Part shown: piece by piece, positions 31,996 to 60,295 of the stretch | Layout of the letters: each line of letters begins with the position of its first letter | Position numbering within the stretch: the first letter of the stretch is position 1 | Source of the DNA: Artemia franciscana | Taxonomy: Eukaryota > Arthropoda > Branchiopoda > Anostraca > Artemiidae | Assembly: GCF_032884065.1 (NCBI RefSeq) | Contig: NC_088872.1 | Location: 3,844,001 to 3,908,000, forward strand | Length of the DNA: 64,000 bases | Direction of reading: 5' to 3' | Translations under genes and position numbers: made by a program | The notes under the pieces: model-generated | Databases searched by the model: none | Seen by the model: the letters and a program-made list of their open reading frames with translations, nothing else | What the model was told of the DNA's origin: nothing

Positions 31996-32130
31996 GATGC
32001 CCTAAAATATCCTATGATTTTTTGGGATGGAGCCAACGGCTATCACTTTAATATTAAATTGATGAATCCAGCCACTAACAAAGAAATGAATAAGAAATGC
32101 AGTGCAATGCATTATTATCCCTATAGACTA

Positions 32131-33134
32131 ATGATTCGCCAGGATGAATACAATTATATTTTAAAATGCCCTCAATTGTTTCACCAATATGTCGTTGATA
32201 AGTATGCAAAAATTGAATCAGAACGTTTGCTATATATCTGTCTGAATCAGACCAAGCTCCGCTCTGAACAATACATTCATTTGCGAAATGCAGTTGTAAA
32301 TGACGGTAATACCACAAACGTTGGAAGATTAACGATTTCACCTTCGTAATATGCTGGCAGTCCCTGTCATATGCATGAATATGCTCAAGATGCTATTGCG
32401 TATGTTCGTCTCTATGGTCGTCCAGATTTATTTATTACATTTACATGTAATCAATCTTGGAACGAGATACAGCAGCTTTTACTTCAAGGACAATTGGGGG
32501 TTCATAGACATGACATTACGGCCCGTGTCTTCCGGCAAAAGTTGAAATCACTGATAAACTACATAGTAAAAATTAAAGTGTTTGGGTCAGTACGATGCTG
32601 GATGTACTCAGTGGAATGGCAGGTTTGCCACACGCACATCTACTAGTCCGGCTACATAATAAAATTACTTCTAACGAAATTGATGATGTGATTTCCGCTG
32701 AAAAACCTGATGAAAATGTCGATAAGGGGTTATATGATATCGTTGTAAAAAATATGATGCATGGACCTTGCGGTGGACTGAACGAAAACTCACCATGCAT
32801 GGCCAAAGGAAGGTGCACAAAGCAATATCCTCGACTTTTAGTATCCAAAACAATTACTGGCAATGATGGTTACCCACAATATAGAAGAAGATCTACTGAA
32901 GATGGCAGTGAAACAGCAATAATAAAGAAGCGTAACGGTACCACCATCGAAGTAGATAACCAGTGGGTTGTTCCATATTCCCCATTATTATCAAAAACAT
33001 TTAATGCACACATAAATGTTGAATACTGTAACTCCGTAAAGGCAATCAAATACATATGTAAATACGTCAACAAAGGCAGTGACATGGCAGTTTTGGGCTT
33101 GCAGTCCGAAATCAAAGATATCGACGAAATCGTA
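32131..33134 (+). pseudogene. Helitron Rep domain (copy 2), cut by gap
   Basis: Continues the same protein: YKYAKIESERLL-like block, LRSEQYIHLRNAVVNDGN, YGRPDLFITFTCNQSWNEI, then after a frame change GLPHAHLLVRLHNKI (HUH motif, ~32,623) and CNSVKAIKYICKYVNKGSD (catalytic tyrosines, ~33,045). Key residues are all present. One stop and one small deletion interrupt it. The sequence ends in IDEIV at the N run. Confidence 0.8.
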
Positions 33135-33144
33135 NNNNNNNNNN
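33135..33144. other. Assembly gap of 10 N
   Basis: Ten unknown bases. Left of it is Helitron coding sequence; right of it is family P linker and then the inverted copy of the left arm. The fixed small number suggests a scaffold join of unknown true size. Confidence 0.98.
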
Positions 33145-34190
33145 ATGTAAGTTATTTCGCAAGTTACGTATATTTTTCACCAATGAGAACGTTTGTAATT
33201 AATTAAAAGTTCTAGTTGCTTTTTTAAGTAATCAAAAATTTGGAGGGCAACTAGGTCTCCTCCTTCGCTTCTTTTTTCTCAAAATCTTCTAAATAATTGC
33301 AATTAATTAATATGCAAATTTCGTTTTAATTATTTATATGCGGAGAGCCAAGATCAAAACATGTATTAATTCAAAAACGTCCAAAAATTAAGTAAAAAAA
33401 AAGTTTTTGTAACGGAACGTAAGGAGCGACATTAACACTTAAAACGAACAGAAATTACTCCGTATATGAAAGGGGCTTTTCCTCCTCAACGCCACGCTCT
33501 TTACGCTAAATTTTGACCCTTTCTCTTAACTCTACTTTTTAAAACAATAAAAAATTTTAGCGTAAAGAGCGGGGCGTTGAGGAGGAAAAGCCCCTTTCAT
33601 ATACGGAGTAATTTCTGTTCGTTTTAAGTGTTAATGTCGCTCCTTACGTTCCGTTACAAAAACTTTTTTTTTACTTAATTTTTGGACGTTTTTGAATTAA
33701 TACATGTTTTGATCTTGGCTCTCCGCATATAAATAATTAAAACGAAATTTGCATATTAATTAATTGCAATTAATTGGAAGATTTTGAGAAAAAAGAAGCG
33801 AAGGAGGAGGCCTAGTTGCCCTCCAAGTTTTTGATTACTTAAAAAAGCAACTAGAACTTTTAATTTTTTACAAACGTTCTCATTGGTAAAAAATATACGT
33901 AACTTACGAATTAACTTACGTAACGAACTTCTATATTCGTATACCTCCCCTCGTCGATCCCTCGTCGATACCTCGCTCTTTACACTAAAGCTTAGATTGT
34001 ATCCCAATTCCTTAAGAATGACCTCCGAATCACAAAGGCCGCAGAATAAAGAGTTGAAATTAGTAAAAATACTTTAATGTAAAGAGTGAGGTATAGGGAG
34101 GAGGTAAACCCCTCATATGCGTAATAATTTTTGTTCGTTTTAAGTTTTAATGCTATTCCTTACTTTCAGTAGAAAAAACTTTTCATATTT
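33145..34190 (-). repeat. Mirrored linker-palindrome-linker-palindrome; inner end of arm 2
   Basis: Linker (33,145-33,410), palindrome (33,417-33,653), the same linker inverted (33,660-33,925) and a variant palindrome (33,945-34,172). The first linker has no partner in arm 1, whose homology ends at 13,531. The linker-palindrome-linker block is itself a ~775 bp inverted repeat, probably the fullest form of the element. Confidence 0.75.
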
Positions 34191-35062
34191 ATTTTTTCAT
34201 TGTTTTTTTAAATAAAGCTAGAAAATCCTGCACCCCCCTTCAATGAAATTCTCTTCCACCATGAGAAGTCTATCCATGGAAATATCCTCACACGTACCCC
34301 CCCCCTCAACACTCCCCCCTAAACAAAAAAATCCCCCTGAAAACGTCTGTATACTTCCCAGTAACCATTACTATATATAAACACAGGTCAAAGTTTTCTA
34401 CTTGCAGCCCCTCCCATGGGGACTGCGGGGGAGTAGGTCCTCCCTAAAGACATAGTTATTAGGTTTTTCGACTATTTTGAATAAAATGGCTATCTCAGAA
34501 TTTTGAGTTGGTGAATTTGGGGAAAAAATGAGCGTGGGAGGGGGCCTAGGTGCCCTCCAATTTTTTGGTCACTTAAAAAGGGCACTAGAACTTTTAATTT
34601 CCGTTAGAATGAGCCCTCTCGCAAGATTCTAGGACCACTCAGTCGATACGATCACCCCTGGGGAAAAAAAACAACAAAAAACAAATAAACACGCATCCGT
34701 GATCTGTCTTCTGGCAAAAAATGTGAAATTCCACATTTTTGTAGATAGGAGCTTGAAACTTCTACAATAAGGTTTTTTGATATGCTAGATCTGATGGTGT
34801 GATTTTCGTTAAGATTGTATGACTTTTAGGGGGTGTTTTCTCCCTAAAAGTTTTCTATTTTCTAAAATGAGACAAATTTTCTCAGGCTCGTAACTTTTGA
34901 AGGGTATAGCTTTTGATGAAACTTGTATATTTGAAATCAGCATTAAAATGCGATTCTTTTGATGTAACTATTGGTATCAAAATTCCATTTTTTTATAGTT
35001 TAGGTTACTATTGAGCCGGGTCGCTCCTTACTACAGTTCGTTACCCCGAACTATTTGATGCT
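34191..35062 (-). mobile_element. Family H repeat (arm 2 copy of 11,874-12,745)
   Basis: The same landmarks in reverse, ending with the head hairpin at 35,034-35,053 (two changes spoil the stem here: TTACCCCGAACTA). Differences from arm 1 are scattered substitutions and short indels. Confidence 0.6.
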
Positions 35063-36127
35063 TTTGGATATGCAATACTTTGGGTTTTACGTCTTGTGTG
35101 TACGTAAATAAATCAAAAGGTTTTACCCAGACATCAATTGGCCAAATGCAGTAGTATGTCTGAGATGTGAGGACTCTCCAAATCTATCACACACGATTGC
35201 AGTGACTTCCCTTGCCCTTTGTTTACAGTCACTGAAAATTGGGTCGTGTAATTGTTTAAATTCAAATAGTATGTCTATTGGAATCAATGGAACAAGTAGT
35301 AGGTGCAAGTCTTCTGTCTGTAATTTGCTACTCAAAATTATGGCTTTGATGTCCAGTTATCCAAACAGGACTAGCCAAAAAAAGCAAGTCCTTGTAGAGA
35401 TGGGAGGTGAGCAGTGCTACAGATTTGAAATTGAATTTAAATTAAAACTTTTAATATTCGGAAAAAATAGCACCTAAAACTTTCCCAAAAGCATGCTCAC
35501 AAACCTCTTGACGACCGGATGAGCAGACTGACTTGCATTCGTTCTATTTATGTAAAAGACACTTCAAAAAGATGTGTTTTTACAAGCTCCTAGTTTTTTT
35601 CTTCTGTGCCACCAGTAAAAGATTTTCTAAGGATCCATAAACACTAAAATCAGTTTCTGACTAGCTTACTAACGAACACGATAATTAGCCTTACCCACGC
35701 CTAACGTATCGTGATGAGAATCCAGTATAAAACAGAACCGGACAAGATAAATAAAACAATCCTAAATCAGTTCGAAACTCTTCAGACGGCAAATAACCAC
35801 CAACTAATAGTGAACAAACTATTTGTTGAAACTAATAATAACTCAGGCTGATCGACACCACCGTGGCTTTGGCTGGATCCACAGCCCCCTAAAAATGATC
35901 TCCGCGATGATTTCTCGCTGGCAAATGTATACCTAGTGACATCTTGGTATGTCGAACTAAAACCATTATCGTAGCATCCTACGATGTTGACAAAATAGAA
36001 AATATGGCATCTTAAGAACATTGTGAAATTTTTATATTTAATCAATTTGTATCAAGCTTTACAAAGAACTAGTATTCTATATGTGTTACAAAGTTCGTTT
36101 TATATGTGTTATATCTGTTCGTTTTAC
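35063..36127. other. Arm 2 copy of the ~1.1 kb segment
   Basis: Corresponds to 10,791-11,873. Holds the open frame 35,123-35,358 described next. The rest is unassigned. Confidence 0.5.
35123..35358 (-). CDS. Possible exon, unknown protein, open only in arm 2
   Basis: Read on the - strand: LDIKAIILSSKLQTEDLHLL, LVPLIPIDILFEFKQLHDP, IFSDCKQRAREVTAIVCD and RFGESSHLRHTTAFGQLMSG, about 78 codons between a TAA and a TAA, with a donor-like GG|GTAAAA near the end. The arm 1 copy carries a stop and a one-base insertion in the same stretch. VPLIPIDILFEFKQL weakly resembles the Helitron helicase motif IPMIPMDLPFQFKRL, but the remainder does not. Could be a captured exon or chance. Confidence 0.25.
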
Positions 36128-36226
36128 ATGAAAACTTAAAACGAACAGAAATTACTCCGTATATGTAAGGGACTTTTCCTCCTCAACGCCTCACTCTTTA
36201 CGCTAAAGTTTGACTCTTTCTCTTAA
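36128..36226. repeat. Half of a family P palindrome, present only in arm 2
   Basis: AACTTAAAACGAACAGAAATT..CTCAACGCCTCACTCTTTACG..TTTGACTC, one arm only. Arm 1 lacks these ~100 bp between AGAGTTAAGAGAAAG and ATAAAACGAACAGATAT (near 10,775-10,810), so the two arms differ by an indel here. Confidence 0.65.
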
Positions 36227-36234
36227 CTCTATCC

Positions 36235-36782
36235 GGTGACTTTGGGGGAAAATGAGCGTGGGAGGGGGCCTAGGGGCCCTCCAATTTTTTTGGTCACTTA
36301 AAAAGGGCACTAGAACTTTAATTTCCGTTAGAATGAGCCCTCTTGCGACATTCTAGGACCAGTCAGTCGACACGATTACACCTGGGAAAAAAACAAACAA
36401 AAACACAAAAAAACAAATAATCACGCATCCGTGATCTTTCTTCTGGCAAAAATGCGAAATTCCACATTTTTGTAGATAGGAGCTTGAAACTTCTACAATC
36501 AGGTTCTCTGATACGCTGAATCTGATGGTGTGATTATCCGTAAGATTGTATGGCTTTTAGGGGGTGTTTCTCCCTATTTTCTAAAATGAGGCGAATTTTC
36601 TCAGGCTCTTAACTTTTGGTGGGTATAACTGATCTTGATGAAACCTATATATTTAAAATCAGCATTAAAATACGATTCTTTTGATGTAACTATTGGTATC
36701 AAAATTCAATTTTTTTTAGTTTTGGTTACTATTGAGCCGGGTCGCTCCTTACAACAGTTCGTTACCACGAACTGTTTGATAC
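36235..36782 (-). mobile_element. Family H repeat (arm 2 copy of 10,226-10,790)
   Basis: The reverse of the arm 1 copy, ending with an intact hairpin at 36,755-36,774. Substitutions only, for example GATCTTTC for AAGAAAGATC context. Confidence 0.65.
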
Positions 36783-37470
36783 CCATCCGTTCAAGTGAAG
36801 GTGAGCACTCTATTAAAATATCCTTCCCTATTACCTGATTGATTGTAACCTTTGATTGATTAGCAAATTTGTTTCAAGCTTTACAATGAACTAGCACCCC
36901 ATATGTGTTACGAAGTATTAAACTTTATGGGAATTCCAGTCACTAACCGGTGATACCCAGCCGTTCAAGCAAAGGCGAACACTCTATTAAAATATCCTTC
37001 TGTGATTGATCGATTGCAAATACCTGGTATGTATTAAAGCATTTAACTTTTGGAAAAATCCAATTTACTTACAGGTAATAGCCGGTAGTTTAAACGAAAA
37101 ACACACACTTTTCCTATTACCTTATTTCTTTTTACTTTTAACTTTTCTTACCTATTTTCTTTTTCCCTATTACCTGATTGATTGCAATCATTCTTGTTAG
37201 ATTTCTGGTGGTTGTTTGTATTTTTCGATCATTGTAATACTTTGTATCTAAAAAGGCCTTTTATCTAGCAAGACAATAAGCTTACGGTTATCAATGATAA
37301 TAGTTCGGAGTAGGACGCCAATTTACAATGGATATTGATTTTAATTAAATTATGCAGTTATTAATTAACTAAATATTGTTTTCTTCAGCTGATTATTACC
37401 CCCTTCACGTCATTTTCAGTTGATTTTTGAACTGATTTGTTCATGTTGAACGTAAGAGGTGAAGAGCTGT
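36783..37470. other. Arm 2 copy of the 3' flank
   Basis: Counterpart of 9,600-10,225. Same short duplications, no gene. Confidence 0.5.
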
Positions 37471-37545
37471 GCATTCCTCAGCCGGTGTTTTGGTTGATAG
37501 GCTGTATTGACCTTTGATTTTATCGACAATGGTTCTCCATGTGAA
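37471..37545 (-). pseudogene. Relic Spätzle exon (arm 2)
   Basis: The same degenerate W..IV.K..Y / EEC stretch as at 9,459-9,545, with one silent change (ACA for ACG). Confidence 0.55.
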
Positions 37546-37632
37546 CTACCAAATAATTGTGTGATAGAAAATTTATTTATTTATATCTTCAAAATGGAAG
37601 TACAAAAATAATTTTTATATCTTATCTTTAAA

Positions 37633-37969
37633 TCAATAGAAAGCAGCTAGAAAGCATGAACAGGCAGACGGAAGTTTGAAAGACTCGATAGAGAAAGGAT
37701 AGTCATAGTCATATGGGTCATAAACTAGAAATCTATGATAAATATTCTTCTGGACACACTTTGACTCGTAGCATTCTGGGACAAGTGGACAAGGATGTTC
37801 AGGGACCTCACACTCTTCAACTCGTGTGTTCTGGTCGAATTTGTAGTATCTGACTTCGACTTTGTTGACGATGATTTTCCATTTGCCTTCTGAATTGACC
37901 GCTCGAAGGGGTTGAACATAATTGGTAGAAGAAGGGCAAAGATATGTTTCATCTCTTATATCATAAAGG
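37633..37969 (-). CDS. Spätzle-like ligand precursor, cystine-knot exon (copy 2)
   Basis: The 337 bp exon on the - strand from acceptor CTAAAAC (reverse of TTTTAG) to the TGA at 37,633-37,635. It has the same length, phase and motifs as the copy at 9,035: YLCPSS, WKIIVNKV, RVEECE, CPLVPEC, YHRFLVYDP and LPSACSC. The arm 1 CCC and this arm's TCC (in another frame Pro to Ser) correspond to a synonymous third-position change in the Spätzle frame. Both copies therefore appear intact. They are either two alleles of one gene or recent duplicates. Confidence 0.88.
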
Positions 37970-40844
37970 CTAAAACAGAAAAGAACAATAAATAATTTTG
38001 TATGGTGCCATAATTCTCTTTTCTTTTACAACTTTTATTTTATCCTAATACCTACCAGACTTTAATCAATAACACATTCTGGAGGAGTATAAGCTTGAAA
38101 AAAGAATTATGAATCTTATGTAAAAAATAAGGAATCATACTAAAAAACAGAAAAAAATTCATTGATGGTAAGGCAAAAACAAAGGCACCAAGTAATCTAT
38201 AGTTAGATTTTTATTTTGCAGGACTTATTTTGAGGGATTTGGAACAGGGTAAAAGAAATAACAGTAGACACAGACAAATATACAGAACCTATAAGAAATA
38301 TTTCTAAAAGTCTTAGAAATATTGATAATATAGAGACGTCAGAAGCCCCTCATTTATATGGGCTAGAGAATGGATTTTTTTTTATCAGTGTCCCTGGGCA
38401 ATAAAATACGTAACAGGTAATATTTATTGAAGTATGGAGGGCTAAAATCTAGAGAAATCACTACCGCTCTAATATCCTGAACAATAATAATTTCTCTAAT
38501 TAAATTTTTGGTTTTTATTCAAATTTTGTTAAGATAAAGAATTATTATTATTTCTGGCGCAAATCCTCAAAATATTTTACCGTTGTATTCATCAGATAGA
38601 TGAAACTACTCCAGATTTATTTAAATTGATTTTCTAAAATTTGTTTGTTTCAATGCCATCTATATTTACAAAAGACGTTGTAAATCAACTAAATAGTATA
38701 GTTATTACTAAAGCTTATTTTAAATAGACATAAAATAATTTTTAATAATTAAATTGGTTCAAACCCTGATAAATTACGAAAAAAGCAGGCAAGAAAAATA
38801 TTGGGCCCACTTGAACTATTAACCAAAAATATAAATAATATGTGTACACCTAATAAATTTTATATGAGTCTAGCAGTGAAATGAAATTACAATACGTTAA
38901 AAACACGCAATAAACAATGGAATAAAGAGATAAAATGATAAAAAGGGTTTGATGATAATTAGGAATCAGGATTTTTCTTCTTCTTTTTTTTTTTACCAAA
39001 TACACTACAAGTCCTATTATAAAATTCTGAAGTAGTTGTAATTTTGAGGTTCACATGCATGTCTAGCCATATATGAACAGAATGACATGAATTGATACCC
39101 CAAAGTATTTCAAGAATGAATTAATACCGCAAAGTATTTTTTTTCTTCTAAATTCTTAATTTTGACACGTAAAACGGATTGTGAAGAACAGAAAATTTTT
39201 ACTAATTTCTACTGTTTCTTACAAAAATTTTTTACTAATTCATGTTGTGCTGCATACCACCTTTCAAACTACCGTAGCCAATTTCGATACTTTTTACACA
39301 ACACACAATACGCGCAATTTTAATATACAATAAACAATACAACAAAGAGATAGAAATGATAAAAAGGGTCTTGTGGTAATTAGAACTCAGGAGTTTTTTT
39401 TTTTTTTACCAAATGCGCTATGAGTCCTATTCTAAAATTCAAAAGTAGTTGTAATTTTGAGCTTCACATGCGTGTCTAGCTATATATGAACAGAATAAAT
39501 TAATACCCCAAAGTATTTCAATAATGAATTAATCCTGCAAAGTATTTTTTTCTTCTAAATTCTTAATTTTGACATGTAAAATGGATTGTGAAGAACAGAA
39601 AATGTGTATTAATTTATGTTGCACTGCATACCACCTTTTAAACTACCGTAGCCAATTTTTCTAATTTCTACGGTTTTTTACTAACAAATTTTACTAATTC
39701 ATGTTGTGCTGCGTACCAACTTTTAAATTACCGTAGCCAATTTTGCTAATTTTTACAAAACACACAATACACGCATTAAAAACACACAATGAACAATACA
39801 ACAAAGAGATAAAAATGATAAAAAGGGTTTCGTGGTAATTAGGGCTCAGGAGTTCCTTTTTTTTACCAAATGGACTACGAGTCCTATTCTAAAGTTCTGA
39901 AGTAGTTGTAATTTTGAGCTTTTGAAATCAAAATGGTAATTGTCTTACCTTAAGAGCTGTGTACGAACAATTAGTTTTGGTCAGTAATTTACAGAAATCT
40001 TATAGTTCTTCTAACGAGCCTATTTTTAGCTTAAAACCAAACTAAGATATAATCAAAATTATAACTTCTAGAAAATTGTTTGTTAAAATTACGCTCCATA
40101 AGAGACAAAAAAAGTCATACATGAACATATTGAATTCCAAGAGATGACTGTTTTTTACTCCTACTTCTAGTCTAGACCCTTGTTTAGTAACGTGGGGAAA
40201 ACTCCATAAAAGGGAGGGATTTGTGAGGAGAAACATATTAGAGTTTTAATGGTCAAGAGGGCGATGTTCACATGAATTAAAATCTAACACTTACAATTAT
40301 AAGTCACAGGGGGGAGGAGTCTTTAACATCTAAAATTCCTATATAGAGCATAAAAAAGGCTGAGAGGCAGTTGCTCTGACATATTACTTTTTCACCAAAT
40401 ATCTGTCAATTGTTTTTTGATATTTCTCTCCTCCGCATAGCTTCTTTATCATTGTGTCATCCTACCGAATCGGCTGCGAAAAGTGGCCACACCTATTCCT
40501 CTATTTAGAAAACTGGTGAATATTTCGATTGAATATGTCTAAATAGGCAAACATATGCAACAATGTAGGTCAAAATATTAGATAATCGGTACTTGTTGTA
40601 TCACCTCTTTGCACTTAAACCAGCATTATTTTGCTGCCTCTTAAGAACCTAAAAAGGTAATTTGTATATTTAGACAGTTAAATCACTTTCTATTTTAGAC
40701 TTATGGTTTATTCACCTGTTAAATGTTTCTCAAAGCCTATGTTTATTTCAAACCGTTTAGCTATTCGGAGGCCAGTCAGCGAACTTAGCTCCTTGGAGGA
40801 CGTGAACTAGCCAATTCGCATTTATAACTGTTTCTTTTTCTACA

Positions 40845-41567
40845 CTGCACAACCAATTCAGCAGTGATAATTAAAAGTGTGACATTTGCCATTTTGGTCA
40901 AAAATAAGTTATGTATGTGTTGTGGGTAAAATCAGCGCGAAGAATCAAACAGTAGGTTAGAATTGTCTTGTCTCTTAGCGTTACGAAGATAAAAAAAGAT
41001 TTATACACCAGTTTTGACAAAAGAGCATTATCTTATAGAGCTATGGTATTATGGTACAGAGCTATGGTATTTGTCTTTTTTTGTTAAGAAAAAGGGGACG
41101 TACACCAAAAGTATATTAACTTTGAATTCACTACGAATACTTTTGACAGAGGAGGATCCTCTTATCTATAGGAAAAAGGAGATATACTCAACAAAATATA
41201 ATGGTTTTAAATTTGCTAGGAACATTTAAATAAATTTTCACCACTGTAAACAGCATTAAAATGTGGTTTAGAATATGTTCCTTTTATCCTCGTTAGTCTC
41301 ATCCTCCAGAGCGGAGGATAGCCGATAAACTATTTTCTTTGTTTTAAATCTTCAGGAAATATACAAAAACAGTTAGGTTAATGCAGTGTTTCATTTAAGT
41401 GTTTTATGATGATCGCTGATCAAAGTTTATGTTATTTGTGTCTTTCGTTTATGTTATTGTACTGTGTTCATGGCTGTATGTTGGCTTTAATATACACTTA
41501 TCTATCTATCTATACAAAAACGGCGTATGTCACACTTTTAATTACCAAAACCTAATTGCCCAACCAG
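40845..41567. mobile_element. MITE-like insertion (arm 2 copy)
   Basis: Ends CTGCACAACCAATTCAGC and CCCAACCAG in inverted agreement, as at 5,430-6,153. Contains (CTAT)n at about 41,495. Confidence 0.5.
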
Positions 41568-42496
41568 CCTGGAAAGAAGTTTTTGGGATGATATCATGTA
41601 AGTGAGAATGATAATATAACTTTGCCGTTTTCTTCAAAAATATAAACAAAAGATAAAAAGCTCAAAGCATCCATGGATATAAGGATCTAAATTTCAACTA
41701 CAAAACAATTTGTATTAATCTATAAAAGTAAATAAATTTTTCGTTTAATTTTTCTGTGAATGGTGTTTTTTTTTCTTTTATGAATGCAATGATTAAACTC
41801 CGTTGTGGTAATTGAGAAGGTGCTAAGTGCAATATTCGTCAGAATACTGCACGCATATGTCCTTAGCACTTTATTGGAAAAATATGCTCGATAACTTGAT
41901 CAAATCCAGATTCTTGTATTTTATTACAATAATTCAGTCAATTGTTTGTTCATACTAGAAAGCCTTTTTTAGGAATCACCTCAGACAATCCTTTGATCCA
42001 GCTGCTCAGCTTGTTAGAGACCTAACACTACGGTGCAATGAATCACAAATACAAGATGCGGCATACTAAAACAAAAATTCAAGATAAATAGGACTTATTA
42101 ATTTCGTCAAAATTTATTAGATCTCCTATTCAAGAAAATTGACTATCAATATTGTGCTTGAAAATATATATTGGTCTTTCTTGTATAAAAGATAATTCAT
42201 TAATATTAACCTAAGAACACCAAAGTATTTTTTTTCTTCTAAATTCTTAATTTTGACACATAAAACAGGTTGTGAGAACAGAAAATTTTTAATAATTTAT
42301 GTTGTGCTGCAGACCACCTTTTAAATTACCGTTGCCAATTTTACTAAATTTTGGCCAAATTTTTTTTTACTAATTTATGCTGTGGTGCATACTACCTTTT
42401 AAACCACCGTAGCCAAAACACAAATAAAGTTTCTTTTGACCAAAAACTCCAACTCATTATCCAGAAAAATATTACGTCAAACTTGGCAGCACTTCA

Positions 42497-42837
42497 CATA
42501 AGCTACTCAGAACTACTACACCTACTGCCACTACAAGTCGCTGCAGTGCTAAGCCACCTAAGGCTACCAAAGCTGTGCAGGATCCACCTTCACCCCAATA
42601 TATTCAAAGCCTCACTCTTTACCCCCTCACATAAAGTTCTAACGTATTTTAAATTCCTTGTCATGATCCTCTTCCCACCCAATTTGGGGAGGCCCTAATT
42701 TTCTTTTGTCCCTAGTTCTCAGCAATGTTCTTTCCCCAGCATGATCTTTGGCAATCAGTCATTCTTCCTCCATAAAATACGGTCTATACATCTTAACCTT
42801 TCATTGGTGGCAACAAGATTTAGTTGAGTCTTGGAAA
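42497..42837 (-). mobile_element. LINE 3'-end fragment (arm 2 copy)
   Basis: Reverse-strand counterpart of 4,150-4,490 with a few substitutions. The frame of 115 codons open on the opposite strand here is a shadow. Confidence 0.45.
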
Positions 42838-43044
42838 AACTCCTCTGACTATAAAATTTTATTTATCAATAAATCTAGTGGCGTATTTCTAGAATCTATA
42901 TTGGGGAGGGGGTAAGAGGGGTCCATATCCGAATTGTCAAGAGCATTGGCTATATAATAATTTTTTCTCCAAATTGTTGGAAGGTGGCAACTGCCCCCTT
43001 GTCCCCCCCCCAAATGACGCCCATGAACAAATCTAAGAGCTTAC

Positions 43045-43409
43045 CCCTCCACAGAGTTCTTTGTATCAAGCTCCACATCCTTATAAAGGGCTAAAACCGC
43101 GTCATAGTGCTCTTCAAGGGCTTTTTGAAGCTCATAAGTTGGATATTCAGGATCTTCGAGGCACCAAGGTCTTCCTGAAAGCTTGGCACAGGCTGGAGCA
43201 TCCTCATACTTTGCTGGGTATTTATTATCATATTTTGGTTGATGATGGCCTTGTTTATGGTGACCTGGCTGATAATGACTTGGTTGCTGATAGCCTGGCC
43301 GGTGGTGGCCCTGTTGCTTATATCTTGATGGATTTGCGTTGGCAGATTCAGCTGTGATCTGATCTTCAGTTTCCGCTGCTAGGGCAATAGTAATACAAGC
43401 TGCTGTTAC
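43045..43409 (-). CDS. Spätzle-like ligand precursor, pro-region exon (copy 2)
   Basis: 365 bp on the - strand with identical splice boundaries (acceptor CTAG at 43,410-43,413 reversed, donor GTAAG at 43,044-43,040). It encodes the same signal-peptide end, His/Gln/Tyr-rich stretch, PACAKLSGRPWC pair and KNSVEG end. I saw a single base difference from copy 1 in the comparable 297 bp. The upstream exon with the start codon was not found on this side either. Confidence 0.82.
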
Positions 43410-45984
43410 CTAGATTAAAAGTAGGTGGAATCTAGTAAATAAAATCTGATAACTGAGAATATTATTAAAATGCGCTTTTTTGTGTCTAATGAATTTGCAA
43501 ATAAATTTTGATAAAATGTTCAAGCAAAAAGAACAACTATTACTCTAACCATAATTTACTATTTCTTATCAAAAATAGATACTAAAGAAAACTTAAAATT
43601 GCCTATAAGAAGAAGAGTTATATTTTATATACACAATGTGAACAATAGAAACAACAATAGAAACTATTGACAAAAAAAAAATCACTAGGTACATACAGAA
43701 GATAAGGATGAGCCATGAATCTTTTCCTGAGCTTCGCTATAGCAAATAATTTGGGACTTCTTATTAATTTTCCCTTCTGCTGAGTTGATTTTTTTTTTTT
43801 TTTTTACTTAAGGCGTCCTCTCCTAATAAATTACCATGTGTACCTAATATGGATAGATTTTTGTAACAACAATCAAAATTTAATTAATCGTGACTCTATT
43901 AGGTAGCTTTTTTGGACAAAAAATAGGTAAAATGTAACCATTTTTTAACCCTCCAATTAAATATTAACCTCCAATAATTCCTCCAATAATCCAATTTTAA
44001 CATCCAATAATCCAAACCTTCAATAATTAATGCAAAAGGAGGTGCTGCATTTTAGTCTCCTCGCGCAAACACTAAATTTTTGGGGAGGAAATGAAGTAGT
44101 GAAAAACCTTTGTTTATTTACCACCCACGAAATAAATTACAATGCTGTCTCCTTAGACGAAAAAAACTTCTTATATTATTATCTAAACATGAAAAAATAT
44201 ACTATCTTTTTTGTTTTAATAAAAAAATTTTAGTAGATGTTGGAAAAGTTGACTCAGAATCGAGCAAAAATTTGATTCGTAAGTTTGGGGTCCACAAAAA
44301 CAAGTTAATCTCTTGAGTTGAAGTGGTTGTTCTTGATGTACCACAAGTTGGAAGTCTTCTTAAATTATCAGAGACAAATGATTAAGCTAGGTAACCAAAA
44401 CATTACTTTCTGTAAATAAATCTAAAGCTGGGAACTTTCTCATTCTAATTGAATATAGAAGACCAAAATTAATACTTCTTGTGAGGGTGTAAAGAAAGGG
44501 GCATTGGTTAGATTGCAATGAAGGAAGAGAGTGTGTAGCTATGTTGGTCTCAGGTGGCTTTACCCGTGCTGTTTACCAAAATACTTGGAAAACTATAGGT
44601 CTCCCGGTTTTCCTGCGAGTCCAGGGGATTGGTCTGTCATGCGTTGATCCTAAAACACGGTATTCCACGTGAGACTCAAAGTGGGCAAGCCTATTAGGCT
44701 TAGGTCACGTGTTCGCCTGTGAGTCCAAGGAAATTTAGTCCCCCCGTTTTGCATACAAGTCCAGTCGACATGGCTAACTACCTTAGTTCGACTCTAGGAT
44801 GGATCGATGGATGGATGATAGGCAATATTGTACAACAAATGAAAGTGACATCATTTTTCATACAATCCTCAAAAGGTTTATGCCCGCTTTGCCTCTCAAT
44901 AAGACTACCTGTCTGACCTTTGTCTCCAATTGGCTAGTGGCTTGATGGCAACTTGATTCAAAAATCAACGGACTCGGTCGAGGCCTTCAGCCTTGTATTA
45001 GGCTTAAGTCACTTCTTCGCAAATTCCAATCAAATTCAGTCCCCCCCCCCCTTTTGCATACAAGTCCAGTCGGCATTGTCCGTCATGAGTAAAACCAAAA
45101 ACACTGATCATCCCTAAGTTCTATGGCTATCTACCATAGTTCTACCCTAGGATGGATGGATAGATTATAGAAAAAATCTAATAACAACTGAATTTTTTAT
45201 GCAATCCTGAAAAAAGAAAAAGAGAAGGTTTGATCTAGGGATACGAAATACTCAACTGTCTCAAAGATCTACCTGACATTTTGCTTTAAATGAAATGTTT
45301 ACTTACTTAAATCTGCTGTAGTTAAATGCGTAAAATGGCAACTTACAAAATATTTTAACATCTTCAAATTGTAACTACTTTAACTTTAGCTGTTTATCAA
45401 AAACTAACTAAAAACACATATCCTTCGTTTGTTTTTATTACACATTCAGGTACCAAAAAAATACAGTAATTATTGCTAACCACCATGACAATGGCCTTGA
45501 ACTGCTTGATCAAGTTTGTTCATCATAAATTTTGGTTTTGATCACTCTGCTAGATGCAGCCAGGTTCTTTTTTTTTTTTAAGTGGATGGGAAATTGATAA
45601 AATTTCGATTGGGCAGAGGAATTTAAGCCATAATCGCATTTTTTGTTCCAGCCAAGGATTACGAAATAGAGGAGTTCTTCACTGCTCACCATGGAATCCC
45701 ATTTTAAGCACTGGTACAGTGTTGTCAACGCATTAAAATAATTTGCACCAGTTTTCTGACTAAAACTTTCCATAAGAGATTAATTTGTAGCATCAGAACA
45801 GCAGGTCAAAATTTGACGAAACAAAAAAACAATTTTCGGTAAATTAGAACTTAGAAGAAATATAGAAATTAGAAGCTATCCGACTCAGAGAGCAAATAAA
45901 ACCAAAATGTACCGGAAAATTTGATTTTTCCCAAAAAAATTTAAATATACCGAATTGCACTAGGATCTCTAAATTATACTAAAG
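43410..45984. other. Arm 2 upstream region, mirror of 1,004-3,577
   Basis: Contains the ~340 bp degenerate direct repeat (44,660-45,212), T-runs at 43,790 and 45,568, and no gene. CpG-containing blocks match arm 1. Confidence 0.55.
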
Positions 45985-46233
45985 CGGTACAATTGTACCG
46001 TACTGGCAGCTCTGTAATGTTAGCCGGCTGATTTCTGGAAAATATTGCCTCCTATCGTCCAAAGAAGCTTATAATCTCTTTACCTACCATACATTTACCG
46101 TTTATTTACCGTTGTAAAACGGTACAATTGTACCGTACTGGCATCTCTGTACTGTTAGCCGACTGGTGTCCGGGAAATATTGCCTCCTATCGTCCAAAGA
46201 AGCTTATAATCTCTTTACCTACCATACAGGTCT
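45985..46233 (-). repeat. Two-unit repeat with CGGTACAATTGTACCG (arm 2)
   Basis: Counterpart of 758-1,003. Both palindromes are conserved. Confidence 0.75.
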
Positions 46234-46391
46234 CGAAAAAAAACCCAGTAAGGGTAAACTATCAAAGATTTAAGCAATTAAGCCAGGCCAAGTAATATGA
46301 GGTTGTGTCACAAATAATATTAGATTGTTCCGGTTATTTCTTCTTCCTTTTCGTTTATATAATAAATACTATAGTTTTCAATAAGTTTTCA

Positions 46392-46625
46392 AACATTAAA
46401 ACTTAAAACGAAACGAAATTACTCCGTGTGTGAAAGGGGCTGTTCCCTCCTCAACGTCCAGCTCTTTACGCTACAGTTATTTACTGTTTTATAAAGTAGA
46501 ATTGAGAGAAAGAGTCAAACTTTAGCGTAAAGAGCGAGATGTTGAGGAGGGAACAGCCCCTTTCATACACGGAGTAATTTATGTTTGTTTTAAGTTTTAA
46601 CGTCGCTCCTTACTTTCAGTTAAAA
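46392..46625. repeat. Family P palindrome, truncated (arm 2)
   Basis: Counterpart of 362-592, with the same missing end. Confidence 0.8.
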
Positions 46626-46734
46626 AAACTTGTTTTTTTATTTCATTTCAGAACGTTTTTGAGTTAATGCATGTTCTGATTTCGGCTCTCCGCAGATGAA
46701 TAACTAAATTTAAAAAAAAACTAGTTTTTTTTTT

Positions 46735-46990
46735 TACTATAAGTAAGGAGCGACATTAAAACTTAAAACGAACAGAAATTAATCCGTATATGAAGTGGGT
46801 TGTTCCGTCCTCAACGCCTCGCTCTTTACGCTAAAGTTTGACTCTTTGCCACAATTCTACTTTTCAAAACAATTAAAAGCTTTAGCGTAAAGAGCGAGGC
46901 GTTGAGAAGGGGACAACCCATTTCATATACGGATTAATTTCTGTTTGTTTTAAGTTTTAATGTCGCTCCTTACTTACAGTTAAAAAAACT
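46735..46990. repeat. Family P palindrome (arm 2; outer end of visible homology)
   Basis: Counterpart of 1-258. Because arm 1 is cut by the window edge, the duplication could extend beyond this point. Confidence 0.85.
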
Positions 46991-47059
46991 AGTTTTTTAA
47001 ATTAATTTCTGAACGTTTTTGAATTAATGCATGTTTGATTTTGGCTCTCCACACATAAA

Positions 47060-50309: not shown

Positions 50310-50560
50310 TAATGGCTATCTCGAATTTTTGATTGGATGTCTTTGGGGAAAAAGTGGAATGGGAGGGGATAGCTTTCCTCTCATCTTTTTGTTACTTAAA
50401 AAGGGCACTAAACCCTTTAACTTCAGTTAACACGTATCCGTAATCTTTATTCTGTCAGAAAAGAGAAAATTCTCTGTTATTTTAGATAGGAACTTGAAAC
50501 TTCTGCAGCGGGGTTCCGTGATATGTTAAATCAGATAGTGTGATTTTTGTCAAGATTAAA
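50310..50560 (-). mobile_element. Diverged family H fragment
   Basis: ATGGCTATCTCGAATTTTTG, GGAGGGGATAGCTTTCC, TTACTTAAAAAGGGCACTA, TAGATAGGAACTTGAAACTTC, TAAATCAGATAGTGTGATTTT. Clearly related to family H but much more diverged than other copies; it runs into the palindrome at 50,577. Confidence 0.55.
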
Positions 50561-50576
50561 TAAAAAAGCAAGTTTT

Positions 50577-50830
50577 TTTAACTGAAAGTAAGGAGCGACA
50601 TTAAAACTTAAAATGAACAGAAATTAGTTCGTATATGAAAGGGGCTGATTCCTCATCAACGCCCCGCTCTTTACGCTAAAGTTTGACTCTTTCTCTCAAC
50701 TCTTCTTTTTAAAACAGTAAAAAACTTTAGAGTAAAGAGCGGGGCGTTGATGAAGAAGCAGCCCCTCCCATACACGAAATAATTTCTCTTCGTTTTAAGT
50801 TTTAATGTCGCTCCTTACTTTCAGTTAAAA
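50577..50830. repeat. Family P palindrome
   Basis: Complete copy with both AACTGAAAGTAAGGAGCGAC ends and GCTGATTCCTCATCAACGCC in the left arm. It sits directly against the Penelope-like fragment. Confidence 0.8.
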
Positions 50831-50877
50831 AAAACTGTTTCTTTTTTTTAATTTGTGAACGTTTCGTCAAAAAAAGA

Positions 50878-52860: not shown

Positions 52861-53574
52861 TACAAGACATCCCCTTTAGCCTATTCTGTATTAACAAAAG
52901 CATAGTTTTAACTTTTTTTAGGAGTAGCAGAAGGATAATACGTCAGACGCGTACCTCTTTAGCATAACTAGTTACAAAACCATAAGCCTTTGACCTATAT
53001 TCAGGTCATAACAATTATATGAATAAATTTTTTAGAAATAGATCACAGGAATAAATCATTCGCACAACCGGTTACTATCCATGTAACGATTTGGGTGAAA
53101 GACCTACATATTCATGTCATAATAATTTCATTTGCATACATACATGAGGCCCTAGCAACCAGCCATAGCAACCAGATCCAATATAAGCCTGGATTATCAT
53201 CATATTCATGGGAATGAGTGCTTATATCAACACTTCTTCTAGGAGGAACGTCTGGTTATCCATGTATCAACCTCCAAGGCCCCAAATACCCCTCCCTGCC
53301 CAATCATTTGCTCCCTCTTTTGTGCTCTTTTTTAAGAAATTTATTATTTTAACTTTTTTTACATTAAATTTTTTTCTTACTTGTCGATTTTTTTAACTTT
53401 TTTTTCATGTCTTAAAATGGCATAAAATATACATAAAACAAAAAAAAATCGCAGATGATATTTTTGAAATATGAAATTCAAAAATATAGACATGTTAGTC
53501 TTGATTTTTCTTATTACAAAAACAATGTTTGAAGTGACATTTTATTTTCTTTTTTTTACTTAGAATTTTTTGGG

Positions 53575-54030
53575 GCAAATTGATAAAGTCGTATATATTC
53601 CAAGTGACGAGACGCTAGCCCTATGAGGAAAACGTTACAATACACCCTTTTGAAGAGTATTGCTTAGTATTGGACTATGCATAAACCTGAAATTAATAAA
53701 GTTGTATATATTTTAAGCGATGACAAGAAAGCCTTATAAGGGAAATGATACAATAAAGTTTTTTGAAGAGTATTCCTTAGTATTGGAGTATGCATAAAAT
53801 GATACAATAAACCCTTAAAATAATTAAAGGTAATTAATATTAATATTTGAAATTAATAAAGTCAAATATATTTTAAACGATGATACGACATCCCTAAGCG
53901 GGATATTATACAATAAAGCCTTTTAAAGAGTATTGTTTAGTATTGGGATATACATAAAGGTAACATTAATAAATTCATGTATATTTTAAGTGATGATACA
54001 TAAGTCCTATGAGGCAAATGATGTAATAAA
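53575..54030 (+). repeat. ~115 bp satellite, left arm (about 4 units)
   Basis: AAAGTCGTATATATT (53,585) recurs as variants at 53,699, 53,858 and 53,971. Each is followed by GATGATACGACA.CCCTATGAGG, ATACAATAAAGCCTTTT and GAGTATTGCTTAGTATTGG. One unit carries a ~45 bp AT-rich expansion. Confidence 0.75.
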
Positions 54031-55880
54031 GCCTTTTTTGGTGACTGAGTATCAAAAATTTAACAGAAAAGCACTTTTGCACGAACAATCTTTGCACGTA
54101 CTTAATTTCCGAGTGTTTTAGTTGTTAACTGAGCATCAAAAATTTAATAAAAACTCATTTGACCGCTATAAACTGTGGGAATTGATAAAATACGAGATTT
54201 TTAATTGCTAACAGAGAACCAAAAAAATTAATAATTCACTTATGACTACAACAAACCCATTTTCTTGGTAAGTTATAAGTCTTTTGATTAGTGACTGGGT
54301 ATCAAAAAATTAATTAAACCACCTTTGCATGGAACAAACTCAATTAGTAGGTAAATTCCAAGTTTTTTAATTGGTGACTGGGTGTCAAAACAATTAACAG
54401 AAAAACACTTTTGCAAGGAGCCAACTCAGATAGCAGATAAATTATGAATGTCTTAGTTGGTGATTGAGCATCAAAATCTAGTAAAAGCACTTTGGACTTA
54501 AATAAACTGAGGGGACGTGATAAATTCTTAGTGTTGTTTTTACTGACAGAACACCAAATAAATAATTTAAGAGCACTATAGCATTGAAGAAACTCAACTA
54601 GAATGTAAATTCTGAATGTCTTAGTTGCTGACTGTTCATTAAAAATGTGATAAAAGCACTTTTGACTGCAATAAACTGAGGGAGTTCATAAATTCTGATT
54701 GTTGTAGTGGCCGATAGAGTACCAAGGAGTATTAATAAAGCACCTTTGACAGCAACCAACTCAGCTAATTTGTATATTCCAAGTCCTTAAAGTGGTGACT
54801 GGGTATATAAAAAAACCGCTTTCTTTATTCGCATACGACAAACTCAGCTAGTAGGTGAATTTGAGCTGTCCAAGTTGCTGATCAAGCATCAAAATTCTAA
54901 TAAAAGTACTTTTGAGCACAATAAAACGAAGGAACTTGATAAATTCTGAGTGTTTTAGCTGGTGGCTGAGAACCAAAAAATAATAATAGTACTTTTGACT
55001 AAAACAAACTCAGATACTTGATTAATTTTAAGTCTTTTAATAGGTGACTGGGTATCAAAAATTAATAGAAAGGAACATTGGCATGGAACAAACTCAGATA
55101 GTAGGTATATTCCAAATGAACCAAATAAAGTGACTGAGTTTTGGAATATAATAAATGCACTTTCGACTACAATAAACAGAGGGGACTTGATGAATTCCGA
55201 GTGTTATGGGTGCTGATAGAATAACAAAAAATTTATAAAAATTCATTTGACTACAACAAACTCAGCTACTTGGTAAATTCCAGGTTTTTTAATTGGTGAC
55301 ACCTTATCAAAAAATTTGATTATAACACTTTTGAGTGCAACAAACTCAGCTAGCTAGTAAATTTTGAGACATTTAATTGGTGACTGAGCATAAAAGAATT
55401 AAATAAAGCACTCGGGTAAATCCCGAGTGTCTTATTTGCTGAGTGAGTATAAAAAATTAATAAAAGCACTTTTAACTAAAATATACTCAGGCAGATGATA
55501 AATTTACTGTGTTTTAATTGCTGGCTGAGTACCCCAAAAAACTAATTTAAACATTTTTGACCAATTCAAATTCAGCTACTTGGTAAATTCCAATTGTTTT
55601 ACTTGGGGATTGAGTATAAAAAAAAACAATTAAAAAAGCACTTTTGCTTGGAACAAACTTAGCTAGTAGGCAAATTTCGTATTTTTGTGTTGATGACTGA
55701 ACATCAAAATTTAATAAGTGCAATTTTGACTAAAATAAACCGAGGGAGTTGATAGAGTCTGCGTTTTTTAGTTGACAAAGGAGCATCATAAAAAATTAAT
55801 AAAAGCACTTTTGAGTTCAACAATATCAGCTAGCTTGTAAATTACGAATGTTTTCATTACCGATAGTTAACCAATTTTAA
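54031..55880 (+). repeat. ~250 bp higher-order satellite, left arm (about 7 units)
   Basis: Three ~84 bp monomer types alternate. A has GCATGGAACAAACTCAG.TAGTAGG. B has GACTACAATAAACTGAGGGA.TTGATAAATTC. C has GACTACAACAAACTCAGCTACTTGG. Monomer B recurs at 54,671, 54,921 and 55,172 (250 and 251 bp). A monomer is missing between 54,502 and 54,671 (~170 bp). Confidence 0.75.
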
Positions 55881-55945
55881 GTTAGGGGTGTTTAGGTTAG
55901 GTTAGTGTGGCCGGCCACGCTAACCAAACCTAGACGATCCTAACT
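55881..55945. repeat. Centre of the inverted repeat: GGCCGGCC with head-to-head TTAGG motifs
   Basis: TTTAGGTTAGGTTAG (55,891-55,905), then TGT, GGCCGGCC (55,909-55,916), ACG and CTAACCAAACCTAG (55,920-55,933). A nearly perfect palindrome with no loop, the GC-richest point of the region. TTAGG is the arthropod telomere repeat; the two sides face each other. Confidence 0.8.
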
Positions 55946-58900
55946 GAAAAGTAGTTTCCTTAATGTAACGTATCCTCATGCTTTTGTGTCCTTTGTGTGT
56001 AAACATTCGAAATCTGTCAATTATCTTAGTTTATTGCTGTCAAGAGTACATTTATTATTTTTTTATGCTCAGTTAGCATCTAAGGCCCACGGAATTTACC
56101 TACTAGTTGAGCTTGCTGTTTGTAAAAGTGTTTTTTATTAACTTCTTGGTATTCGATCAACAATTAAAGACTCAGAAACTTACCAAGTAGATAAGTTGGT
56201 TTCAGTTAAAAAGTGGTTTTATCAGTTTTTTTTATTAAGCTAATAAGTAGAACACTCGGAATATATCAACTACCTGAGTTTATTGCGCTCAAAAGAGCTT
56301 TTATTAAGTTTTTGATAGTCATCCAGCAAATGAGACAATTGGAATTTACCTACTAGCTGAGTTTGTTGTATGCAAAAGTGTTTTTATTTCCTTTTTGCAT
56401 ACTCAGTCACCAATTAAAAGACTCATAATTTACCAGTTATCTGAGTTTGTTGTACTCAAAAGTGCTAATATTAAATTTTCTGATGCGCTGTCAGTAACTA
56501 AAAAACTCGGCATTTTCCAGCTAGCTGAGCTGGCTGTGCTCAGAATTGCTTGTATTAAATGTTTTATGATAATCTGTCAGCAACTAAAACACTCTGAATT
56601 TATCAACTTTCTCAATTTATTGTATTCAAAAGTGATCTTGTTAAATTTCTTATGCTCAATCAGCAGCAAATACACTCGGAATTTAATTACTAACTAAGGT
56701 TGTTTTATGCGAAAGTGTTTTTTTGTTATTTGTTTCATACTCAATCACCGTTTAAGCTTGAAATTTACCAAGTACTTGAGCTAGTTATAGTGAAAAGTGC
56801 TTTTATTAATTTTTTGGTGATCAGCCTGCAACTAAAACACTCGGAATTAATCAACTACCTGAGTTTATTGTAGTCAAAAGTCTTATTAAATTTTTGATAC
56901 TCAGTTAGAAATTAAGACACTAAGAATTTACTTACTGTTCGAGTTTATTGTATACAAAAGTACTTTTATTAAATCTTTGACATTCAGTCAGCAAATAATA
57001 TACTCGGAATGTACGTAATAGATGAGTTTGATGCAGTTTAAAAAATATTTTTATTAATGTTTTGGGTTTCAGCTAGTAATTGGAACACACGACATATATC
57101 AACTACCAGAGTATATTGTACTCGATAGTAGTTTGATTAAAATTTTATAGTCTGTAAGCAAATAAGACAATAGGAAATTATCAAGTGTTTGAGTTTGTTT
57201 TGCTCAAAAGTGCTATTGTTAAATTTTTTTATATGATTTAAGTAACTTAAACACTGGGAGTTTACGAGCTAGCTGAGTTAATTGAACTCAAAAGGGCAAC
57301 TAGTGAACAACTAAAACACTCAGAATTTCTTAACTCCCTTAGTTTATTGTAGTTAAAAGTGCTCTTGTTAAGTTTTTGATCCTCTGTCAGCTGCTCAGAC
57401 ACTTAGAATTTACCTCCTAGTTCAGTTTGTTCTAAGCAAAAGCGTCTTTTATTATTTTTACACTCAAACATGAATTAAAAGACTTGGAATTAACCAAGTA
57501 GCTAAGTGTGCTATAGCCCAAAGTGCTTTTACTAATATGTGCTTTTTATCAAAGTGGTTTTTTGTTAATATTTTATTAATATTAGTGCTATGCTCAACCT
57601 GCAACTAAAACACCTATAAATTATCAACTACCTCAGTTTATTGTAATCAAAAGGGCTTTTACTAAATTTTTGATACTCAGTCAGCAATTAAGACACTCTG
57701 GATCTACCTTCTGGCTGAGTTTGTTTAATGCAAAAATGGTTTTATTTTATTTGTTTTTGATACTCGTTCCCAAATAAAGAGTCTAAGAATTTACCTACTA
57801 GCTGAGTTTATTGTACTCAAAAGTGTTATTATCAAATTTGTTAATAAGCTGTCACCAATTAAAAGAGTTGGAAATTACCAAGTAGCTGATTCGGTTGCAG
57901 TCGAGAGTGCTTTTATTAATTTTTGGTATTCTGTCAGCAACTATAACACGCGGAATTTATCAAGTCTCCTCTGTTTATTTTAGTCAAAAGTACTTTTCTT
58001 AGATTTTGACCCTCAGCCAGCAATTAACACATTCAGAATTTGCCTACTATCTGAGCTTGTTCCATGCAAAAGTGTTCTTCTTTTAGTTTCCTGATACCCA
58101 GTCACCAATTAAAGGAAACTTACCAAGTATCTCAGTTTGTTGCAGTCAAAAGTATTTTTTGGGCACCCTGCCAGAAGTTAAAACAATCAGAATTTATCAA
58201 GTCCCCTGATTGGAATTTTGAAGATCAGTCAGCGGCTAAGAAATTCCGAATTTACCTACTAGCTGAGTTTGTTATATACAAAAGTGATTTTTAATGATTT
58301 ATGACGCTCAGACACCAGATAAGATTCAGAATTTACCTTCTAACTAAGTTTTTTTTCATGCAAAAGGGCTTTTATAAAAAAAATATCCAGTCACCAATTA
58401 AAAGACTTGACATTTACCATGTCGCTAAATTCGTTGTAGTCAAAAGTGTTTTTTTTTAATTTTTTGGTACTCTTTCAACACCCACAACACTCGAAATTTA
58501 TCAAATCCCTCAGTTTATTGTAGACAGAAGGGTTTTCATTAGATTTTTGATTGATGCGTCCTCATCAACTAAGACGTTCGAAATTTATGGAATTTACCAA
58601 GTAGCTGAGTTTACTGTAGTCAAAAGTGCTTTTATTAGGTTTTTGATACTCAGTCAGCAACTAAGGCGGTTGGATTTAATAAACTGCCTCAGTTTATTGT
58701 AGTCAAAACTGCTTTTATCAGATTTTTGATGCTCAGTCAGTGACAAAGACATTCGGAATTTACCTACTAGCTGAGTTTGTTCCATACAAAACTGATTTTC
58801 TATTAATTTTCTTATACCCAGTCACCAATTAAATGACTTGAAATTTACCTACTAACTGTGTTTTATTCCATGCAAAGGAGCTTTTATTGATTTTTTTAAT

Positions 58901-59000
58901 GAAAAGACTTGGAATTTACCAAGTAGCTGAGTTTGTTTTAGTCAAAAGTGTATGCAAAAGTGCTTTTCTATTAATTTTTTGATACTCCGTCACCAATTAA
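55946..59000 (-). repeat. ~250 bp higher-order satellite, right arm (about 12 units)
   Basis: The same three monomers reversed. B-type CTCAGTTTATTGTAGTCAAAA variants lie at 56,030, 56,275, 56,612, 56,864, 57,113, 57,349, 57,637, 57,965, 58,508 and 58,690. Spacings are near 250 bp, with jumps near 330 where one monomer has been gained. Open frames here are repeat shadows. Confidence 0.75.
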
Positions 59001-59620
59001 GGCTTTATTGCATTATTTACCCTCACAGGGCTATTGTATCATCACTTAAAATATATACAACTTAACTAATTTTGACTTTATGCATACCCCAATACAAAAC
59101 AAAACTCTTCAAAGGCTTTATTGTATCATTCCATTCATAGGGCTAACGGGTCATTGCTTTAAATATAGACGACTTTATTAATTTCAACTTTATGCAAACC
59201 CCAATACTAAACAATACTTTTCAAATGCTTTACTGTATCTTTTCCCTCATAGAGATGTTGTATAATCGTTTAAAACATATTTGACTTCATTATTTTGAGT
59301 TTATGCATGCCCCAATACTAAGCAATACTTTTCAAAAGGGTTTATTGTATCATTTCCCTCATAGGGCTGTCGTTTCATCGCTTAAAGTATATACGACTTT
59401 TCTAATTTTGACTATATATACACCAATACTAAGTAATACTTTTAAAAAGACTGATTGTATCATTTTCCTCATAGGGCTGTCGTATCATTTCTTAAAATAT
59501 ATACGACTAATTGCATCTCCTTTAATAAGAAATACACTTCAAAAGCTTTATTGTATAGCTTTATAGGGCAGTCGTATTGTCGCCTGAAATATGTACAACT
59601 TTATTAAGTTCATCTTTATG
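59001..59620 (-). repeat. ~115 bp satellite, right arm (5-6 units)
   Basis: GGCTTTATTGTATCATT..CCTCATAGGGCTGTCGTATCAT..TTAAAATATATACGACTTTATTAAT recurs about every 115 bp. It is the reverse complement of the 53,575-54,030 block, with one or two extra units. Confidence 0.75.
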
Positions 59621-60295
59621 CGTACCCCTCCCAATAAAAAAAATCAGGAAAAAATGTCACTATAAACGTTGTTTTTCTAATAAGAAAAATCACGACTACC
59701 ATATCTGCATTTTATTCATTTTATTTTTCGAAATTATCACAAGTGACTTTTTTGTTTTAAATATATTTTATTCTATTTTAAGAAATGAAAAAAGTTGAAA
59801 AAATTACTGTCAAAAAAATAAACTTAAGAAAATAAGTGTAAAAAGGGGGCAAAAAGCTGGGTTGAGGAGGGACATTGGGGCCTTGATGGTTGGGATATGG
59901 ATAACCGTACTTTCCTTCTAAAATAAGTGTTGATATAAGCACTCATTCCCACGAAGATGATGATAATCCAGCCTTATATTAGATATAGTTGCTATGGCTG
60001 GTTGCTAGGGCCTCTGGTATGTATACAAATGAAGTTCTCATGGTAGTATGCAAAAGTAATGTACCCTCTGTAGTATAGAAAGTCTGTCCTGTTACTCCAT
60101 GAACGTCTATTAATCATGTCCTAACATGAATATGTTGGTCATCCACCCAAATTGTTACATGGATTGTAACCGATTACTTGAATGATGTATTCCTGTGATG
60201 TATTCCTAAAACATTTATTTATATAATTGTCATGACCTGAATAAGTACGTGAAAGGCTTATGGTATAATAACCGGTTATGCCAATAATGTATAAG

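Follow-up and report, generated by a model that had tools for sequence, protein, structure and literature searches.

A gene-free foldback element of Artemia franciscana with mirrored satellite arrays, a conserved palindromic centre and probable Maverick/Polinton-type mobilisation

Closest described systems and anatomy of the mirrored element

Large foldback transposons with unequal tandem arrays in their inverted repeats are already known. According to the sections of PMC4168063 used here, Galileo copy 112 of Drosophila willistoni, a member of the P superfamily, is 9,021 bp long and consists of inverted repeats of 4,246 and 4,680 bp with ~140-bp tandem repeats, present in unequal numbers per arm, and no transposase; Galileo target duplications measure 7-8 bp. 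Tetris of Drosophila virilis, assigned to Mutator by its authors, has an outer flank domain and tandem repeats within inverted repeats of up to 1,735 bp, a middle domain separating the arms, no coding sequence and an 8-10 bp target duplication, and its copy number changes by unequal exchange (PMC4079207, in part). Mavericks of vertebrates generate 6-bp target duplications, and their commonest ends are 5'-(AGT)2//(ACT)2-3' (PMC8097293, in part). Here, we describe a 7.4-kb mirrored element located in a stretch of 64,000 nucleotides of the brine shrimp Artemia franciscana (NC_088872.1, positions 3,844,001 to 3,908,000; hereafter the window, with coordinates counted from its first base). The element is probably a non-autonomous, protein-free foldback DNA transposon of a dispersed family, and its insertion was most likely carried out by an integrase of the Maverick/Polinton type acting in trans.

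The self-comparison of the window revealed an inverted repeat at positions 52,952-60,291, the arms of which meet without a spacer at 55,912/55,913 (GGCC/GGCC, 32 of 40 bases mirrored). This agrees with the initial annotation, which had proposed a giant spacer-free inverted repeat built from two satellites in mirror order. From the outside inwards, each arm contains a flank domain of ~0.6 kb, an array of 112-bp units and an array of 83-bp units. The left arm begins with the outer tip (52923..52961, forward strand; 5'-AGTAGCAGAAGG...), which alignment of ends placed 39 bp outside a GCATAAC motif, and continues with the flank domain (52962..53569, forward strand) and, both on the reverse strand, four 112-bp units (53570..54034) and 22 83-bp units (54034..55870). 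The palindromic centre (55842..55983, no strand assigned) is followed on the forward strand by 37 83-bp units (56010..59000) and six 112-bp units (59000..59630), and then by the right flank domain (59631..60284, reverse strand), at the end of which the arm homology stops and the outermost ~39-bp tip is absent. A dispersed repeat begins beyond it, at 60318. Unit numbers were obtained by profile search and include some fragments in the case of the 83-mers. The satellite first described as ~115 bp was refined to 112 bp, whereas the '250-bp' satellite proved to consist of three 83-mers; counted in such triplets, the profile results uphold the earlier copy numbers (4 versus 5-6 and 7 versus 12). 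A 113-bp satellite is known from brine shrimp, for which our literature search returned no confirmation. The two arms were 84.9% identical across the outer 159 aligned sites outside the arrays, and the non-satellite flank domains were 83.1% identical over 575 aligned sites. Since the flanks are only ~83% alike, the mirror is old and does not represent the fold-back of one read; it is genuine rather than a product of assembly.

The element shows the anatomy of a foldback, with long inverted repeats carrying tandem repeats, little or no middle and no coding sequence. No open reading frame of at least 130 aa was found inside it, none of its eight open frames of at least 79 aa matched Pfam above the cut-off, and no polymerase, integrase or capsid gene of the Polinton type is encoded. 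Rfam and tRNA scans of the sequence returned nothing; viral contigs gave zero matches to three exact patterns, and plasmids gave no match. Like Galileo copy 112, the element is gene-free and composed of two inverted repeats only, with unequal tandem arrays, but the Galileo copy is the larger of the two, so the size, for which the initial annotation knew no match, is not unprecedented. Two arrays are present instead of the one tandem family of Galileo, and the conserved palindromic centre described below has no counterpart in the sections of PMC4168063 used here. With Tetris it shares the outer flank domain, the tandem repeats within the inverted repeats, the lack of coding sequence and, probably, changes of unit number through unequal exchange. 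In contrast to Tetris, it has no spacer, and the 37 bp that the Tetris flank and repeats have in common (PMC4079207, in part) are without a parallel: the flank domain, the 112-mer, the 83-mer and the centre showed no mutual sequence sharing beyond shuffles in the pairs tried. Within the outer ~180 bp of the left flank domain, one motif occurs as two diverged copies ~106 bp apart (score 50, against a maximum of 40 among 500 shuffles); the corresponding repeat in the right arm was not significant (41, against a shuffle maximum of 42).

The initial annotation had also suggested a higher-order repeat. The evidence for a three-unit order of 83-mers is weak. Self-alignment of each arm was best at an offset of ~250 bp, which favours such an order. 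Against it, the similarity among monomers of the same three-unit phase was raised only a little in the left arm, where 11 of 500 permutations were as extreme, and was not raised in the right arm (178 of 500, four badly cut monomers having been dropped). The arm-to-arm alignment score of 3,534 exceeded the maximum of 100 single-monomer shuffles (3,492), but not the scores of shuffled blocks of three (mean 3,515, sd 106), which again favours a three-unit order; one run of five monomers matched between the arms register by register (0.72-0.87). Taken together, these results indicate that the 83-mers are only partly collinear between the arms. A change in array length, as first proposed for the satellites, was evident from L009, which lies beside the window, is 97-98% identical to the window element and contains an additional block of 83-mers of ~1.2-1.3 kb relative to the right arm of the window element. 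This block did not come from a recent duplication of adjacent units, which makes a deletion in the window copy the likelier event; judging from the sequences, the window copy probably lost the block by exchange between units.

Relatives, target duplications and the shared centre

Positions 52952-54000, used as a genome query, gave at least 140 matches (40 of 1,078 candidates scored), and relatives were dispersed across many contigs, some with the same ends. Comparison of tips with these relatives placed the true left end of the window element at 52,923 (AGTAG...; AGTAGC) and not at 52,952, and the right homology was traced to ~60,284 instead of 60,291. The spacing between AGTAG and TTAG was equal in the window element, L031, L032 and L008 (36 bp; 35 in the window, where the pattern was matched one base earlier). 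No target duplication was found near 52,952 and 60,291, where one had been expected, because the element starts outside the first of these positions and has lost its right tip. A related repeat lies at 61094, and no empty site was found next to it within the window.

The target duplication was recognised in relatives, for which the AGTAGTG motif, or the position homologous to it, served to define the tips; opposite tips pair up at distances of 3.5-12.6 kb. In the six elements of the discovery set (C13, C3, C2, C6, L029 and L016), the flanks agreed at 27/36 positions at a length of 6 bp, and the true pairing of flanks was the only one among 720 to reach this value. Four further elements, fetched later to test the 6-bp length, gave 22/24, two of them being perfect. 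All ten elements together gave 49/60, which none of 20,000 random re-pairings attained, while agreement at the other lengths from 2 to 12 bp was 20-47%. The existence of further copies and the short duplication in relatives bear out the earlier view of a mobile, foldback-like element. They also bear on an unlikely alternative, that of an ordinary foldback of the Mutator (Tetris-like) or P/Galileo type whose inverted repeats grew by tandem amplification. The outer flank, the tandem repeats, the unequal arms and the absence of genes all fit Tetris and Galileo copy 112, as described in the parts of PMC4079207 and PMC4168063 cited above. However, the 7-8 bp duplication of Galileo is not seen in the ten elements (15/70 at 7 bp and 20/80 at 8 bp), nor is the 8-10 bp duplication of Tetris (24/90 at 9 bp and 25/100 at 10 bp), whereas the 6-bp length of Maverick/Polinton elements is. 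By its target duplication, the element is thus neither a Galileo nor a Tetris, and by its gene content it is no Polinton.

A search of the 1.27-Gb genome with the centre of the element, in which 31 of 31 candidates were scored, located it at 31 loci, 24 of which matched on both strands. The window sequence was aligned with its duplicate L009 and 19 more loci (together L009-L028), with L029 added, and one common centre was recovered across the window and L009-L028. For the family survey, ~10 kb was read around 20 of the 29 centre loci other than the window and L009. At 19 of the 21 loci (these 20 and the window), the left arm matched its own right arm in inverted orientation over at least 150 bp, the exceptions without such a match being L010 and L011; direct matches of this length occurred at 6/21. 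Between arms of different loci, inverted matches numbered 102/420 and direct matches 47/420. The 83-mer was detected at 7 of the 20 loci (L010, L013, L014, L018, L019, L028 and L029); L023 had arrays with periods of 165 and 83 bp, L026 and L027 had a period of 69-70 bp, and only short arrays were present in L012, L016 and L022. As the arrays differ among the loci, the centre is common to elements with different arms. The 7.6-kb relative L029 (C10:5926044-5933666) is complete, possessing the two tips, the two flank domains, the centre and 83-mers on either side; its right arm has no 112-mers and carries one block of 83-mers in reversed orientation. L016 combines the centre with arms of another kind and with the tips AGTAGAGATAGC and AGTAGTGATAGC. 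Two observations concern related sequences elsewhere. In L030, two inverted flank domains (1914-2288 and 5626-6149) enclose an interior of 3.3 kb in which the arrays are missing, and a 159-aa open frame of the interior had no Pfam match. Clusters of matches to the 112-bp array, up to ~4.7 kb long and exceeding that of the window, were located at C1:56578756-56583436, C2:31292748-31295644 and C2:31347210-31350043.

The centre itself folds stably (z -4.57, with 0/200 shuffles folding equally well), and TTAGG-like repeats, (TTAGG)n, on the left of the axis face (CCTAA)n on the right. On each strand, the 24-mer that most resembles TTAGG repeats in the whole window lies at this axis (20/24 and 19/24), while the maxima in 60 simulated windows never exceeded 18. 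These motifs first suggested a relic of telomere-telomere fusion at the window locus, with TTAGG repeats joined head to head between shared subtelomeric satellites. The presence of the same centre at 31 dispersed loci led us to abandon this explanation, which is now very improbable: two of the centre loci, L029 and L016, carry transposon-like tips, and the common centre also includes a non-telomeric core, GCGTGGCC/GGCCACGC. At most, a telomere fusion could have given rise to the centre motif in the distant past. Outside the element, another short stretch resembling TTAGG repeats is present at 18509-18530.

Probable mobilisation and formation

The 6-bp duplications and AGTAGT-like ends of the relatives make insertion by a Maverick/Polinton integrase most likely, as both features are shared with Maverick/Polinton elements (PMC8097293, in part). 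In the host genome, PF03175, the Polinton-type polymerase family, has at least 44 matches, with 91 of 154 candidates scored; 12 of their neighbourhoods (L043-L054) were sampled, one side each. In three of the five compared first (L043, L044 and L046), the sequence common to the polymerase loci ended exactly at AGTAGT, and the same tip sequence was also present in L048, L051 and L054. Comparison of the mirrored loci with the Polinton neighbourhoods gave ten short matches; in L014-L048, L022-L054 and L025-L054, the matched part lay outside the Polinton tip. The end region of L046 (2682-3385) carries, like the window element, tandem repeats, in this case about five ~141-bp units, the outermost of which reaches the AGTAGT tip. 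From the ends and the 6-bp duplications we infer, with good support, that the mobilising enzyme belongs to the Maverick/Polinton class. As the window element contains no Polinton coding sequence, it would be a non-autonomous passenger at most. It also differs from a Maverick/Polinton in that its entire body is one inverted repeat.

Several observations weigh against this assignment. The right tip of the window element is lost, and the 6-bp duplication is known from relatives only. AGTAGT was exact at 10/20 ends and within one change at 18/20, with tips placed by motif and homology. For C16, the right tip was chosen between two candidates with the flanks in view (6/6, the other giving 2/6), and the alternative would lower the total for the ten elements to 45/60; an eleventh element with uncertain tips, L025, gave 3/6 and a total of 52/66. 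The centre was shown in only two of the ten elements used for the duplication (L029 and L016), each of which matched at 4/6 bases, whereas the other eight (C13, C3, C2, C6, C20, C11, C1 and C16) are known from paired tips alone and are not among the 31 centre loci. The link between tip and centre is thus drawn from L029 and L016 and, in the case of one tip, also from the window and L009. The Polinton tip was recognised in 6 of the 12 sampled neighbourhoods and in none of the other six, and the six Polinton tips have only AGTAGT in common with those of the foldbacks. Finally, the centre shows little or no pairing constraint: at 19/21 loci, double changes numbered 6 against 3.5 expected (235/2,000 shuffles reached that value) and paired cells 310/399 against 302 expected (50/2,000 shuffles). 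With so little pairing constraint, the centre has decayed since insertion, so that any need for it would have acted on active source elements.

The low pairing constraint also speaks against a hairpin-RNA locus, maintained for small RNAs from a long double-stranded transcript. Such a function might be imagined for a multi-kilobase inverted repeat without a spacer, but it is hardly credible for arms that are about 15-25% diverged and for arrays whose order is just partly collinear. An origin without transposition, by local inverted duplication or by assembly fold-back, for which the larger inverted repeat (95-98%) and the 10-N gap elsewhere in the window and the absence of a visible target duplication at this copy could be cited, is highly improbable in view of the ~17% divergence of the arms and their unequal unit numbers, and is contradicted by the relatives on many contigs.

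If the window element is indeed a foldback mobilised by Maverick/Polinton proteins, its structure could be accounted for by the following scheme. The element would be copied by protein-primed synthesis from its tips and integrated by an integrase supplied in trans. The mirror may have been born in a linear replicon with protein priming, whose displaced strand would have turned back on itself at the centre before being copied, the conserved centre acting as the turn-round hairpin. Fold-back copying of this kind would give a spacer-free mirror that needs one kind of end and possesses two equal ends by construction; unequal exchange and deletions would later have altered the arrays. A parallel, for which a literature search provided no confirmation, is offered by the symmetric palindromic defective genomes of adenoviruses, which originate from a folded-back strand: protein-primed ends flank their spacer-free mirror, which may hold foreign DNA. 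They are, however, viral and occur in cell culture, and the likeness would concern the origin of the mirror only.

More tentatively, the family may represent a lineage of gene-free, fully palindromic Maverick/Polinton satellites, linear DNAs with one kind of end, protein-primed copying, a conserved telomere-motif turn-round hairpin and exchangeable arms that could acquire different satellite DNAs and distribute them across the genome. Of the earlier proposal that the element is undescribed, the large array-bearing foldback anatomy had precedents, but the combination of Maverick-type ends and a conserved palindromic centre on a foldback seems to be new; a limited literature search by title found no publication on palindromic or foldback Polintons. 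Should the proposed assignment hold, cut-and-paste transposons would not be the only source of foldbacks, which would also arise from self-synthesising, virus-like ones. Elements usually keep their ends and vary in the middle; a centre that is conserved while the arms are swapped would invert this picture and offer a testable handle on the formation of perfect mirrors. The family would furthermore act as a carrier that disperses ready-made satellite arrays with units of about 70 to 165 bp.

Other repeats and genes in the window

A larger inverted repeat pairs window positions 1-13549 with 33383-46987 (97.9% identity over 10.8 kb and 95.3% over 2.8 kb) and runs off the left end of the window. 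The second copy of the element, L009, lies inverted beyond this edge, at C10:3829186-3838021, and the larger inverted repeat therefore probably extends that far. The 10-N gap (33135-33144) is situated near its inner edge, which makes the head-to-head joining of two haplotypes a real possibility. A family of imperfect palindromes of ~300 bp, with 79-94% self-inverted identity, was found at 25-593, 13249-13549, 19464-19771, 33384-33691, 46393-47018 and 50551-50855, with two copies placed at the inner edge of the larger repeat. Within this larger repeat, an open frame with a Spaetzle domain is duplicated (8979-9371 and 37633-38025). Broken Helitron pieces (Helitron_like_N and PIF1) with a 69/138-bp coding tandem repeat occupy positions 27326-33206.

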